A DNA stretch of 35,015 nt. Source: a virus. The notes under the pieces were generated by a model that was not told the DNA's origin, did no database searches, and was given only the letters and a program-made list of their open reading frames with translations. The stretch lies in the IMG/VR virus record IMGVR_UViG_3300025000_000275, positions 1 through 35,015 of that record. One strand, 5' to 3'. Made by a program: the position numbers and the translations under genes. Below are positions 8,311 through 15,784 of this stretch, in pieces; within the stretch, counting starts at the first letter, position 1, and each line of letters opens with the position of its first letter.

Positions 8311-8490
8311 ATGCAGGTTTTGACTGTCGTCATTGACGAGCTACACCGCCGCGTTGACATACGGGCTGACCCAAGGCCGGACGCGACGCCGATGGAAATC
8401 CACCTCGGAAAGTCGCTGGAAAATCTCTTGAAGGCGCAGATGGTGAAAGCCATACAGGCGACTTGGCCGCCGGATATCAAAAGGAGCTAG
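8311..8490 (+). CDS. Small hypothetical protein upstream of recT
   Basis: The frame from ATG 8311 to TAG 8490 gives 59 residues, beginning MQVLTVVIDELHRRV. It fills the gap between the previous gene (stop at 8309) and recT exactly, and its end contains the AAAAGGAG ribosome binding site of recT. The codon pattern matches its neighbours. No family is recognised. Confidence 0.55.
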   Translation: MQVLTVVIDELHRRVDIRADPRPDATPMEIHLGKSLENLLKAQMVKAIQATWPPDIKRS

Positions 8491-8493
8491 AAT

Positions 8494-9345
8494 ATGGGAA
8501 ATCAAACGGAACCGGAGTTTTTTGCGCTTGTCGCCACGGGGCGGAAGGGCGTGGAGGACATGCTTGAGAAAATGGGCGGGGAGATCGCGAAGATCGCGGC
8601 GCCGAACGTCGGCGGCGCCTTCGACGTATGGAAGACGCGCGCGCTGGTCGAGGTGTCAAACCGCGATGAGCTGAAGGACGTGCTGGCGACGAAGACGGGG
8701 ATTTTCTCAGTCTACAAAGCCCTCACGAAAGCGGCGACCATGGGGCTGCAGATCGGCGGGCAGTTCCCGCATGCGTACTTGGTGCCCTTCCAAGGCAAGG
8801 CGCAGTTGGTGGCCACGGCTGAGGGGTACGCCTTCGCCTGCGCGCATGGGCCGGGCGCGGTGCTGTCGAACATCCCGAAGCTGGAGCATGTGCACGAAAA
8901 CGACAAATTGCACGTGGACGCTGCGGCCGGGAAAGTCAAGCACGATTTCGAGCCCTTCGGTGAACGCGGAAAGCTGGTCGGGTACTACATGCGGCTGGAG
9001 TACCTTGACGGGCACGTCGAGATAGCGACCATCCGGCAAAACGAAGTTGACGACATCGAAAAGGTATACTCCCGAAGCGACGGACCTGCCTTCAAGAAAT
9101 CCCCGCAGGCCATGCACGACAAGACCGCCGCAAAGCAACTCCTTAAAAAGCCGGTGAAGGAATCCGAGGGCCTCGCGATGCTTCTCGCGGCCGACGAGTA
9201 CGAGGCTCCGGAGCCGCGCCAAGCCCCGCCACGCGACGTAAGCGAGCGGGTGGGCGGAAGGCTTGACCGCATCGCTGAAAAGGCCGAGGCGGTCGAGGTG
9301 GAAGAGGTAGAGGAAGTCGCCGAAGAGGCGCAGGCACTTTTTTAA
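8494..9345 (+). CDS. recT: RecT-family single-strand annealing protein
   Basis: This 283-residue protein carries the RecT core: FSVYKALTKAATMGLQIGG (residues 70-88), QFPHAYLVPFQGKAQLVATAEGY (89-111) and a later YLDGHVEIATIR segment. The C-terminal 60 residues are acidic and low-complexity, rich in Glu, Ala and Val. RecT proteins coat 3' overhangs and anneal complementary strands, working with a 5'-3' exonuclease, here the YqaJ-type enzyme at 6908. The ribosome binding site AAAAGGAG lies about 7 bases upstream of the ATG. Confidence 0.9.
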   Translation: MGNQTEPEFFALVATGRKGVEDMLEKMGGEIAKIAAPNVGGAFDVWKTRALVEVSNRDELKDVLATKTGIFSVYKALTKAATMGLQIGGQFPHAYLVPFQGKAQLVATAEGYAFACAHGPGAVLSNIPKLEHVHENDKLHVDAAAGKVKHDFEPFGERGKLVGYYMRLEYLDGHVEIATIRQNEVDDIEKVYSRSDGPAFKKSPQAMHDKTAAKQLLKKPVKESEGLAMLLAADEYEAPEPRQAPPRDVSERVGGRLDRIAEKAEAVEVEEVEEVAEEAQALF

Positions 9346-9666: not shown

Positions 9667-10901
9667 GCCCCGCCGATTTCCGCGATGAGCCGGGCCTGAG
9701 CGTCGGCGACTTCGCGGAAGTCTTCCTCCCTCCACGCCGTGTAATGCTCCGTCATCGCCTCCGTCTCGTGCCGCGTTATCGCGCGGACCTTTGAGTCAGG
9801 GACGCCCTGATTGCGGAAATAGGTGTTGGCGAAAGCTCGCCAAGAATGGAAGCTTAACTTCCTTTTCTGCCGTAAGTCGTCGCTTATGCCGATTTTCTTG
9901 AGGGCGTCGATCAAGGCGTCGTTGCACCTGTTCGCAGTCGCCGGGCGCTTTCCGTCGGTGAGGGAAAAAAGATAGTCGCCAGCCTTGCAGATGTAGGCGC
10001 GGGATAGCAGCCGGTCAGCGAGGAAGCGCGGTATAGGTATGAGATCCGTACCGCGCTTGGTTTTCTGCCCTCCCTCCCCGTACTTGATGTTCCACGAGTG
10101 GGCGATGGTGATATGGGTATGGTGGATGTCGTCAGCATGCAGTGCAAGGCATTCCCCCATCCGAAGGCCGGTGAGGCTGGCAAGCAAGTTGATATCGTAG
10201 TAGATGAGCGGCCGCCGTGCGCTTGACCATACCGCGACCGAGGTTTCCGGGTCCATGAGCTTTTTATACTCTTCCAGGGTGAGGATCCCCTTTCCTCCTG
10301 GCCCTGGTTGGTAGCCCTTCACGCTTGCCCAGGGAGACGCTACGACGAATCCAAGCCGCGCCGCTTCCTTGAACATGACGCGGTAGACGCTGGAAAAGTT
10401 GTTTATCGTCTTGTTCGATGCTCCCGCCGCCGCCCATGATGACATGAGGTCTTCACAGTCGAGCGGGGATATCTGGTCCAGCCGCTTGCCGCCGTGCGCC
10501 GGCTCGATCTTGTCGCGGAAGACGCGAGCGCATTCGTCCGCGTGCCGCCGCTGGATCGCCGGTTTCCCCTCCGCGCTCCGCTTGAGTTCCCCCTTGCAGT
10601 ACTCGCAGACCGGGCCGTCGTCCGTCCACTCCCACCAGTGCCGGGCCTTGGCGAATTCCGACAGCGTGAGGAAGCGCCGCCGTGGAGCGCCTGCGGGCTT
10701 AGGGGGCTTCGGACCGGGGATCAGCCTGCCCTCTGCCGCAAGGGATTCACAGTGCCGGTACGCGGCCGCCTTCGAGGTTTCGCCGGTGGATCGCGCGTTG
10801 GTCCGCTTGCCTTCTGCCGTATAGGTCCGGTAATACCAGACCTTGCGGCCGTCTTTGAGCCGGTTGGCAAGCAGGGTAAAGGGTTCCTTGTGGTATGCCA
10901 T
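9582..10901 (-). CDS. int: Tyrosine-recombinase integrase with zinc-type insert
   Basis: This 439-residue protein has the catalytic set of a tyrosine recombinase: R247 in TGLRMGE, H352 and R355 in FHSWR, H378 in TRHET, and the nucleophile Y387 in EHYTAW. An N-terminal arm-binding region (1-60) precedes a core-binding domain. Within or just before the latter is a Cys/His cluster, C99-x2-C102-x17-H120-x3-C124, which could bind zinc; I associate similar inserts with spirochaete phage integrases. The last 25 residues are Gly/Ala-rich and overlap the SSB-like gene in antisense. It would integrate and, with an excisionase not seen here, excise the phage at the att site at about 11007-11029. It is driven by its own leaderless promoter. 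Confidence 0.93.
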   Translation of the reverse strand: MAYHKEPFTLLANRLKDGRKVWYYRTYTAEGKRTNARSTGETSKAAAYRHCESLAAEGRLIPGPKPPKPAGAPRRRFLTLSEFAKARHWWEWTDDGPVCEYCKGELKRSAEGKPAIQRRHADECARVFRDKIEPAHGGKRLDQISPLDCEDLMSSWAAAGASNKTINNFSSVYRVMFKEAARLGFVVASPWASVKGYQPGPGGKGILTLEEYKKLMDPETSVAVWSSARRPLIYYDINLLASLTGLRMGECLALHADDIHHTHITIAHSWNIKYGEGGQKTKRGTDLIPIPRFLADRLLSRAYICKAGDYLFSLTDGKRPATANRCNDALIDALKKIGISDDLRQKRKLSFHSWRAFANTYFRNQGVPDSKVRAITRHETEAMTEHYTAWREEDFREVADAQARLIAEIGGAQNGISSGLPGAVGGDAGAEEEAGGGAD

Positions 10902-13450: not shown

Positions 13451-13791
13451 GCGTTGGCGTCCACGATGGTCAGCGTGATGCGCGGAGTACCTGCGGCGCG
13501 GACGACGCGCAAGGCGGTAAGGCCCTTGCAGGCGTTATCCGTGGTCACGGCGACGATTCCGGCAGGCCAGAGCTTCCATACGGCCGTGCCTGCGATGACA
13601 GCGGCGTGCGGGCTGTTCGTGCCTTCGATGCTCGCGGTTCCTGCGGCGTCGAAAGACAGCACGGCGAGGACTTCGCAGGTGGGGATGAGGATCGCGTCTT
13701 GCGCGGCTCCGGCGGCGTAGGCGACCGACAGGGGAGCGCGGGCGGACTCGCCGTAGACGCCGGAGGGGGTGAGAGTTTCATTTACTGCCAT
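13447..13791 (-). CDS. Hypothetical beta-rich protein
   Basis: The 114-residue product begins MAVNETLTPSGVYG and has no predicted signal or membrane segment. Alternating hydrophobic strands and small residues suggest a beta-sandwich virion protein. It partners the gene at 13010, to which it is coupled by ATGA. Its start overlaps the end of the Rz1-like gene by 14 bases. I do not recognise the family. Confidence 0.55.
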   Translation of the reverse strand: MAVNETLTPSGVYGESARAPLSVAYAAGAAQDAILIPTCEVLAVLSFDAAGTASIEGTNSPHAAVIAGTAVWKLWPAGIVAVTTDNACKGLTALRVVRAAGTPRITLTIVDANA

Positions 13792-14071
13792 TTACAAGCC
13801 TTCCTTCGCGGTCTAGGGCCGCGCGGACATCATCGACGGCCCGGATGTAGCCGACGAGTTCCGTCCAGTAATCGAGGGGGACGACTACCGCCCCCGCTTC
13901 GTCAAGTACGATCCCGTCCGGCGGCGCTGCCAAGATCGGCCAAGCCAGGGGCAGGGGCTCGGGGGGCGGCTCCGGTCTTGGCGGACACGTCGCGCAGGAC
14001 ATCGAGGCCAGCGTCAAGGCGATCAGCAGGAGGACCGGAGCGAAGATGCGCAAGATCTTTTTCAAGGGCAT
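13778..14071 (-). CDS. Rz1-like outer-membrane spanin lipoprotein
   Basis: The 97-residue protein begins MPLKKILRIFAPVLLLIAL, a basic N-terminus plus hydrophobic signal, and reaches a cysteine at residue 26 in SMSC, a non-canonical but plausible lipobox. A proline-rich segment follows (CPPRPEPPPEPLP), the hallmark of Rz1-type o-spanins. The gene starts inside the Rz-like gene in another frame and overlaps it by 170 bases, the classical spanin arrangement. It would link the outer membrane to the inner-membrane Rz partner and fuse the two membranes at lysis. Confidence 0.7.
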   Translation of the reverse strand: MPLKKILRIFAPVLLLIALTLASMSCATCPPRPEPPPEPLPLAWPILAAPPDGIVLDEAGAVVVPLDYWTELVGYIRAVDDVRAALDREGRLVNGSK

Positions 14072-14252
14072 GACGGGCGGCCTCCATATTTCGGAATTCG
14101 GCGGCTTGGGTGGCGAGTCGTTCGGCGGCGAGTAAGTAGCGCTTATGCTCGAAGTCGGCATCCTTGCGCGCCATGAAGGCGACCTGCGCGAAGTAGTACG
14201 CGGCGAGGCAGGCGGCGGCGAGCAACACCAGCAGGACGACATACCCGGTCAT
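13902..14252 (-). CDS. Rz-like inner-membrane spanin
   Basis: The 116-residue protein has an N-terminal transmembrane anchor (residues 2-24, VVLLVLLAAACLAAYYFAQV), then a charged helical region predicted to form a coiled coil (about 28-85), and a Pro/Ala-rich tail. Size, layout and the out-of-frame overlap with the lipoprotein gene at 13778-14071 match i-spanin/o-spanin pairs. The ATG overlaps the holin stop as ATGA, so this is part of the lysis cassette. Confidence 0.72.
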   Translation of the reverse strand: MTGYVVLLVLLAAACLAAYYFAQVAFMARKDADFEHKRYLLAAERLATQAAEFRNMEAARHALEKDLAHLRSGPPADRLDAGLDVLRDVSAKTGAAPRAPAPGLADLGSAAGRDRT

Positions 14253-14488
14253 TCCGCGCCGCCGATCTTGCGGCCGATGCCTTCCAGCACGCCGACGCCG
14301 AGAAGGGCCGCGCCGGTGATGATGAGAGCCTTTCCGGATGCAAGGGCGGTCGCAGGATCGACGACCTTGCGGAATATGGCGACGATGCCCACGGCGAGCA
14401 ACAGGACGCCGCCAGAGCCCACCAGAGCCGCCCCGAACGTGCGCTTGGATGATTTCACGCCGGGGGATTCTTCGAAGATGTCCGTCAT
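14249..14488 (-). CDS. Putative holin
   Basis: The 79-residue product begins MTDIFEESPGVKSSKRT. Two hydrophobic segments, about 18-37 and 47-67, are separated by a short loop, and the C-terminus ends GRKIGGAE. Size, two membrane spans and position between the peptidase candidate and the spanin genes fit a class II-like holin. ATG 14488 overlaps the upstream stop as ATGA and is preceded by GAGGAAAG. No conserved holin family is recognised, so the call rests on context. Confidence 0.6.
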   Translation of the reverse strand: MTDIFEESPGVKSSKRTFGAALVGSGGVLLLAVGIVAIFRKVVDPATALASGKALIITGAALLGVGVLEGIGRKIGGAE

Positions 14489-14901
14489 GCTTCTTTCCTC
14501 TTGAAAATGCGCTTGGATACCAAGGCTCCGTCGCGTACCGTGCGGCTTACACCGTAGGGGTCGAAGGCTACCGCGCCTTTCCCGTCGCCTACGACAAAAT
14601 GGGAATACGTCATGCCGGGAGTGACACGCTCGAACCGAAGGATTTCCAGCTCGCCGGGCTTCGGGAGGTATTCCGGTGTGGCGTGGAATACTTCCCACTT
14701 GTCCCGGTTGAAGAATCCCAACACGGCGGCGGGGTCGAGGATGTAGCAGTCCTCCCGCATGTAGCCGCGGGCGGTGGCGATGTTGTAGGCGTCGAAGGGG
14801 TCAACGCTTCCGCCGTCGATCAGTGATTCGAGGTGCAGGATGGAGAGGAAATAGCATCCTGATGCGCCGATGGCTTCGGCTATTTTCTGCGGGGCTTTCA
14901 T
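14485..14901 (-). CDS. DUF261-like papain-type peptidase, candidate endolysin
   Basis: The 138-residue protein contains ASGCYFLSILHLESL with C16, YSHFVVGDG with H101 and AFDPYG with D114, an order and spacing like the Cys-His-Asp sites of C39/NlpC-type cysteine peptidases. The segments ATARGYMREDCYILDP and SKRIFKRKE resemble the DUF261 family that I know from Borrelia and Treponema replicons. No other murein hydrolase is seen in the lysis region, so it may be the endolysin, although a protease role is equally possible. It is coupled to the holin gene by ATGA. Confidence 0.65.
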   Translation of the reverse strand: MKAPQKIAEAIGASGCYFLSILHLESLIDGGSVDPFDAYNIATARGYMREDCYILDPAAVLGFFNRDKWEVFHATPEYLPKPGELEILRFERVTPGMTYSHFVVGDGKGAVAFDPYGVSRTVRDGALVSKRIFKRKEA

Positions 14902-15134
14902 GCGTCCGCCTCTATTTCGTGCACGGTCTCGATCTTCGTCAGGCGTACGCTATGGTTCTCAAGCTTGACGCCGTGGGTATCGACGATTTCCATGATGTGG
15001 TTCATGGCGGCCGTGTTGTTTTCGATGACGACTTGAAGGGGCGCGACGGTCGTCTTGATAGCCCAGAGGACGAGGGCGGAAAGCGGAAAGACAACGGCGA
15101 GGATTATCCCTACCGCCTCAGGGGTTATGTTCAC
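14898..15134 (-). CDS. Membrane-anchored coiled-coil protein
   Basis: The 78-residue product has one hydrophobic span (residues 8-30, VGIILAVVFPLSALVLWAIKTTV) followed by a heptad-like helix to the end (NHIMEIVDTHGVKLENHSVRLTKIETVHE). This resembles small XhlA-type lysis accessory proteins and some holin regulators. It is coupled to the peptidase gene by ATGA and belongs to the lysis cassette by position. The exact role cannot be read from the sequence. Confidence 0.6.
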   Translation of the reverse strand: MNITPEAVGIILAVVFPLSALVLWAIKTTVAPLQVVIENNTAAMNHIMEIVDTHGVKLENHSVRLTKIETVHEIEADA

Positions 15135-15784
15135 GGAGCCTCCGGCGGGGTGTAGATCGCCCCCGAAATTACATATTCCCCGTTGCCGTCGAGGCGCGCC
15201 TGCCGCTGGTAGATGTCCAAGCGGTCGGCAAAATGCGCGTCTATGGTGGCGTAGTAAGAGGCGTCGGTTAGGTGTTCTTCGAATATGATCGAACCGTCTG
15301 CGGCGATGAGGTAAAGCGCGTATTTTTCATAGTCGCTTCGGGTGTCGATGATGACGACGGGTGGGGGGGGGATGTTGTCCACGTAGAGTATGGCGGTTCC
15401 ATAACTATCGGTCTGCCGCCGCCACTGGTCGCGCCGCTCAGTGAGGTCGGCGCGCTCGATGCCGTGGTACTCTTCGATTATTTCGTGCGTGTCGGCGTAG
15501 ACGATATATGCATCGGCGGAAGGGGAAAGCTCGATCGGCGGGACCTCGCCATAGATGACCGTCCACTGATCGTCAGTGTGCGCGGCATTGTAGGCGGCCG
15601 CCTCTGCTTCGAGGGCTTCGGCGGTGTCGAGGGCGCGGGCGCCGATGGTCGCCTCGGCTACGATGCGCCACGCTGAATCGACGGCGTGCACGTTCGGGCG
15701 CTCGGTCTGGATGACGGTTTCCACGGGCGGAGTGCAGGCGGCCAAAGCGAAGGCCGCGATGATGGCGAGGATGCTACGCTTCAA
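15131..15784 (-). CDS. Phage-encoded lipoprotein
   Basis: Read from TTG 15784, which has a strong GAGGAGG site 6 bases upstream, the product is 217 residues and begins with a signal of the form MKRSILAIIAAFALAAC. The lipobox LAAC with C17 is canonical. The mature part contains many Tyr, Asp and Ile and a proline run (IPPPPVVIID). It could be a superinfection-exclusion or lysis lipoprotein, or part of the fibre locus. A longer reading from 15856 would hide the signal peptide and is unlikely. Confidence 0.65.
   Translation of the reverse strand: MKRSILAIIAAFALAACTPPVETVIQTERPNVHAVDSAWRIVAEATIGARALDTAEALEAEAAAYNAAHTDDQWTVIYGEVPPIELSPSADAYIVYADTHEIIEEYHGIERADLTERRDQWRRQTDSYGTAILYVDNIPPPPVVIIDTRSDYEKYALYLIAADGSIIFEEHLTDASYYATIDAHFADRLDIYQRQARLDGNGEYVISGAIYTPPEAP

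Follow-up and report, generated by a model that had tools for sequence, protein, structure and literature searches.

A DUF261-family protein as the predicted endolysin in the lysis cassette of a probable spirochaete phage

The window analysed here, a linear virus record of 35,015 bases, carries on its minus strand (13778-15134) a gene cassette that is very probably the lysis operon (holin, endolysin and spanins) of a phage that has a Mu-type tail and, most likely, a spirochaete host; a protein of the DUF261 family would be its endolysin. A sequence-only reading of the window had proposed this role for the DUF261 protein; at the level of sequence comparison it is supported by slot exchanges with CHAP endolysins and by the repeated linkage of the family to holin and spanin genes. 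The assignment is new in that the family is not recorded as an endolysin in the open-access papers searched. Neither DUF261 as a whole word nor PF03196 was mentioned in these papers, and the apparent literature matches turned out to be DUF2612 or DUF2614 and were rejected as false.

Results

Organisation of the lysis cassette

All five genes listed in the sequence-only reading are present on the minus strand in the order given there. The first encodes a TM/coiled-coil protein (14898-15134; 78 aa, with a GTG start and a single TM segment at the N-terminus), of a type that also stands ahead of the endolysin/holin pair in L005, L012, L014, L002, L260, L262, L273 and L274. It is followed by the DUF261 protein (14485-14901; 138 aa), the proposed papain-like cysteine endolysin with the residues C16-H101-D114, in which no signal peptide was seen. 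The holin candidate (14249-14488; 79 aa) has a first TM segment that begins near residue 21 and a second that begins near residue 54, and matched no Pfam or PHROG family. Next come an Rz-type inner-membrane spanin (13902-14252; 116 aa), with an N-terminal TM segment and a charged coiled coil, and an Rz1-type outer-membrane lipoprotein spanin (13778-14071; 97 aa), which is proline-rich, carries a lipobox and is read in another frame than Rz. The claimed overlap of 170 bases between the two is exact (13902-14071) and lies in the 3' part of Rz. The pair has the features of a two-component spanin, namely a TM and coiled-coil protein, an overlapping out-of-frame lipoprotein gene, and homology to the corresponding pairs of L014 and L005.

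Stop/start overlaps of 4 bases (14898-14901, 14485-14488 and 14249-14252) chain the TM/coiled-coil, DUF261, holin and Rz genes together. Directly upstream lies a gene for a putative lipoprotein (15131-15784, minus strand; probable TTG start, lipobox LAAC), which overlaps the TM/coiled-coil gene by another 4 bases (15131-15134); a lipoprotein of 219 aa holds the same place in L014. This lipoprotein may stand outside the lysis cassette proper, and the chain of overlaps, its gene included, fits one translationally coupled operon.

According to gene scans of the window, the surroundings are the late region of a myovirus with Mu-type tail proteins: a gpT-like capsid protein, a lambda-type portal, a GpA-type terminase, tail sheath, tape measure, and GpP-, Gp45-, Gp46-, J- and Gp48-like baseplate proteins. 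An integrase and RecT are also encoded. Relatives fetched via the baseplate J protein lacked DUF261 and were of no use as swap tests.

Search for another murein hydrolase

No lysozyme, amidase, transglycosylase, M15, M23 or CHAP domain was found in about 37 genes of the linear window record (scanned with Pfam and partly with PHROGs, some small early ORFs being left out), which upholds the earlier remark that no such enzyme is visible. A second endolysin elsewhere in the phage, which would have spoken against the proposed role, was likewise absent from these genes and from the 25 top families listed for each of two phages with a DUF261 cassette, G003 (45 kb) and G004 (35 kb). As the window record is linear and possibly incomplete, one might suppose that the real endolysin is encoded in a genome part that the record lacks. 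We consider this the least probable of the alternatives, since DUF261 fills the slot in related cassettes as well and no other hydrolase appears among the families listed for G003 and G004. As a separate observation, G003 contains two diverged copies of a stretch comprising the small terminase, the large terminase and the start of the portal gene (L098:127-3978 and L100:5976-9221), as if two related phages had been joined, in the assembly or in tandem.

Family assignment, active site and predicted fold

The window protein belongs to PF03196 (E 4.5e-19; 69.4 bits against a Pfam gathering cut-off of 26.1), the match spanning positions 9-136 of the 137 of the profile. Relatives occur in 480 plasmid records, nearly all of them from Borreliella and Borrelia. 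In viral contigs a scan with the single DUF261 protein matched nothing, and alignment-based queries were needed. The active site, previously given as possible, is borne out by conservation: the cysteine is kept in 49 of 51 aligned relatives (the exceptions being a serine in L241 and a gap in a short ORF), the histidine in all 51, and the third position holds Asp, Asn or Glu in 50 (D 38, N 9, E 3, H 1). Papain-type enzymes accept Asn as the third residue.

The AlphaFold model, computed from a 17-sequence alignment, has a mean pLDDT of 91.4 and a pTM of 0.86. In it C16 opens a helix (16-29), H101 lies in a strand (97-105) and D114 follows directly after a strand (111-113). The predicted structure is papain-like in layout and has the papain-type order of catalytic elements. 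Structure prediction had been named as a check for a papain-like fold, and a fold without a Cys-His site as evidence to the contrary; the model agrees with the former and has C16 and H101 in the papain-type order. Fold matches in the PDB were weak (staphopain, TM score 0.54, probability 0.80; the C39 peptidase domain of PCAT1, TM score 0.47) and none reached E<=0.001, so that the relationship to papain rests on topology, residues and weak matches. A viral structure library gave one strong match, the best, to an unnamed protein (TM score 0.82) and another to a phage protein that carries the annotation wall hydrolase (TM score 0.54, E 0.011). By sequence, the CHAP profile (PF05257) did not match the window protein up to E 1, and a PDB sequence search yielded no convincing relative among solved structures.

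Related cassettes

A Spirochaetaceae MAG (L014) contains the cassette of the window gene for gene. Its DUF261 protein is 59% identical, and the other genes in the same order are related as well (shuffle z of 40 for Rz1, 18.1 for Rz and 17.6 for the holin). This suggests a spirochaete host for the window phage. In L005, where DUF261 shows about 35% identity, the order is TM protein, DUF261, an extra two-TM protein of 58 aa, holin, Rz and overlapping Rz1 (z of 3.5 for Rz, 8.3 for Rz1 and 6.0 for the holin against the window). In PHROGs, the L005 Rz finds Rz-like spanins with E down to 1.1e-4, and the L005 Rz1 the Rz-like spanin family phrog_456 (E 0.0021). The holins are related across the window, L014, L005 and vir526 (L005 to vir526, z 11.0). 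The same cassette type was found in L014, L005, L012, the vir526 group, G378, G341, G037, G132 and many prophages, among which G234 has the exact order of the window including the overlapping Rz/Rz1 pair.

In G004, a near-complete Mu-like phage, DUF261 is flanked by the early region on one side and by the gp27-like gene and terminase on the other. The lysis region of Mu has the layout lys, Rz, Rz1 before gp27/gp28, and the DUF261 site in G004 corresponds to the place of the Mu lysis genes.

The phage vir526 (L002, BK063670.1) is recorded as infecting Methanomicrobiales, which have no murein. Its DUF261 copy, with this host label and a tail-module setting, had to be considered as evidence against an endolysin. 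Yet its neighbours, a TM/coiled-coil protein, a holin homologue and an Rz-like gene, make up the same cassette, and this weakens the objection. The Rz-like gene suggests a diderm bacterium as the host, and the host label may be wrong.

At the spanin position of L002 and L012 we also observed two out-of-frame ORFs with near-total overlap (L002:9594-9974 with an ORF ending at 9993; L012:8420-8803 with 8427-8837). One has an N-terminal TM segment, the other a signal-like N-terminus, a coiled coil and a C-terminal TM segment. This overlap is unusually deep even for Rz/Rz1.

Exchange with CHAP endolysins

A motif scan with the L005/vir526 holin identified phages that carry a close homologue of it. 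Two of these, L182 and L173, have a CHAP protein in the position of DUF261, before the homologue of the L005 holin. The CHAP protein of L182 matches PF05257 with E 4.4e-10, and that of L173 is 79% identical to it. Even the small gene between enzyme and holin has its counterpart, a two-TM gene of 61 aa in L173 and the two-TM gene of 58 aa in L005. A second, independent exchange involves another holin: that of the DUF261 cassette of G642 has a homologue in G659 that stands beside CHAP (E 3e-8 for the CHAP match); the gene after CHAP encodes a coiled-coil protein whose C-terminus holds a TM segment. Two further homologues of the G642 holin, in G686 and G626, both stand in cassettes with DUF261. 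DUF261 and CHAP occurred together in none of 66 loci, with three CHAP hits. As judged from gene content, the case for DUF261 having the function of CHAP rests most strongly on its exchange with this known endolysin. DUF261 both adjoins holin and spanins in a late region and exchanges with CHAP at the same locus, as expected for an endolysin.

Beside the same holin, L278 (G790) encodes another protein, one that shows a TWC/GHV pattern. It was considered as a further exchange but has no Pfam family, and was therefore not counted. In the CHAP-type relatives L171 and L173 (5860-6399, minus strand) the gene immediately after the holin is one for a Lipase_3 (class 3 lipase) protein, and a homologue lies elsewhere in the L005 phage (L100:4168-4782); its product is possibly an envelope lipase.

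Alternatively, the DUF261 protein of the cassette could be a cysteine protease that acts on a protein, such as an antiholin, a spanin or a host envelope protein, the murein being cut by an enzyme of the host or the virion. The papain-like fold is common to proteases (staphopain, C39), members of the family outside lysis cassettes may point to proteolysis as the ancestral activity, and a host without murein is claimed for vir526. However, DUF261 replaces CHAP endolysins and accompanied them in none of the 66 loci, and no other hydrolase was found among the scanned genes of the window or the families listed for G003 and G004. We therefore regard a protease of this kind as unlikely, and the cassette members of DUF261 as, with high probability, an endolysin family of a known kind with the predicted activity of a cysteine amidase or peptidase.

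Other genomic settings of DUF261

Among the Spirochaetota, DUF261 profiles matched 46 of 274 genomes of one family; for a second and a third family the figures were 21 of 200 and 2 of 30. A non-random sample of 51 loci was classed by eye, lysis type meaning holin-like and spanin-like genes within about three genes. Twenty-four loci (the window and 23 more) were of lysis type, 7 lay beside a portal gene, 12 were of a chromosomal DUF2589 type, 3 came from Borrelia and 5 were other or truncated. In the tree the lysis-type members are spread across the family and the DUF2589 type forms one clade; thus the lysis setting does not go back to one recent event.

Members of the DUF2589-linked clade are found on Treponema-type chromosomes (L084, L086, L240-L242, L245-L247, L265 and L266). 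There DUF261 is preceded by two or three DUF2589-like proteins and followed by one of 300 aa that has about four TM segments; L241, in which Ser replaces the catalytic Cys, belongs here. DUF261-like stretches were also seen within ORFs of about 1,100-3,300 aa (G359, G179, G556, G206, G686:C208, G618 and G183), possibly polymorphic-toxin proteins. Because of the DUF2589 clade, these giant ORFs and the Borrelia plasmids, we limit the endolysin assignment to the cassette members.

The same settings could suggest that DUF261 is a passenger, i.e. a gene for a toxin, immunity or host-takeover protein that came to lie near lysis genes by chance: giant toxin-like ORFs contain it, Borrelia copies lie away from the holin and some phage copies adjoin the portal gene. 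But the linkage to holin and spanins recurs in lineages mostly only 22-38% identical to the window DUF261, the gene is joined to its neighbours in the window by 4-base overlaps, and its replacement by CHAP is specific. A passenger role is thus very improbable.

In the Borrelia plasmids, DUF261 has DUF244/integrase (cp32) or dbpA (lp54) as neighbours. On cp32-1 a blyA-blyB-blyB-lipoprotein cluster occupies 15.2-16.4 kb; DUF261 stands at 24.6 kb, which leaves about 9 kb between it and blyA. In L005, the Rz1-like lipoprotein (L005:9029-9301 = L099:7548-7820) matches Pfam Borrelia_orfD with E 9.6e-5, just under the cut-off; this family is the BBA14/OrfD lipoprotein, which is encoded after BlyA/BlyB in Borrelia. 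Pairwise comparisons of the OrfD type, into which L104:2088-2441 and L003:454-819 also entered, gave z of 3.3-4.1. The similarity suggests that, among the lysis genes of cp32/lp54, OrfD is the one for the outer-membrane spanin. Tentatively, and with somewhat less than even probability, DUF261 may be the missing endolysin of the cp32 prophages of Lyme Borrelia (phiBB-1), whose lysis genes would be split between a cluster of BlyA, BlyB and an Rz1-like lipoprotein of the OrfD/BBA14 type and DUF261 some 9 kb off.

Discussion

The proposed course of lysis in the presumed spirochaete host is the following. Lacking a signal peptide, the DUF261 enzyme would accumulate in the cytoplasm. At a set time the two-span holin would open the inner membrane, and the enzyme would pass through the holin into the periplasm. 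There the thiolate of Cys16, activated by His101 and Asp114, is predicted to hydrolyse an amide bond of the murein, the likely target being the peptide cross-link or the stem peptide rather than the sugar chain. As the last step, Rz and Rz1 would bring about fusion of the inner with the outer membrane.

Pfam lists the function of DUF261 as unknown, and the endolysin assignment gives the family a testable function, for which the CHAP exchange partners are natural positive controls. The main texts of a paper on 38 Treponema prophages (PMC11144348) and of the phiBB-1 genome paper (PMC11008901) name no endolysin or holin; the spirochaete phages thus gain a candidate lysis enzyme. The exit of cp32 prophages from Borrelia cells becomes directly testable as well.

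Among known systems, the lysis region of phage Mu resembles the cassettes of the Mu-like phage G004 and the prophages G037 and G132 in position and content, but Mu has an enzyme of its own where these carry DUF261. The DUF261 proteins of Borrelia plasmids belong to the same family (PF03196) by the curated cut-off and have the same triad as the window protein; unlike the latter, they are encoded outside the BlyA/BlyB cluster. Peptidases of the C39/staphopain type share with the DUF261 model the arrangement of Cys at a helix start, His in a strand and Asp or Asn in the next strand, yet the structural similarity is weak and no convincing sequence match to solved structures was found. The CHAP fold is itself papain-like. 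CHAP endolysins (PF05257) are, like the predicted DUF261 enzymes, small single-domain proteins with a Cys-His site, and both take the same place next to holins of the same families (L182, L173, L280). The two are nevertheless different sequence families with no cross-match in Pfam, and most DUF261 members, unlike CHAP, have a conserved C-terminal S-x-R-I-F motif.
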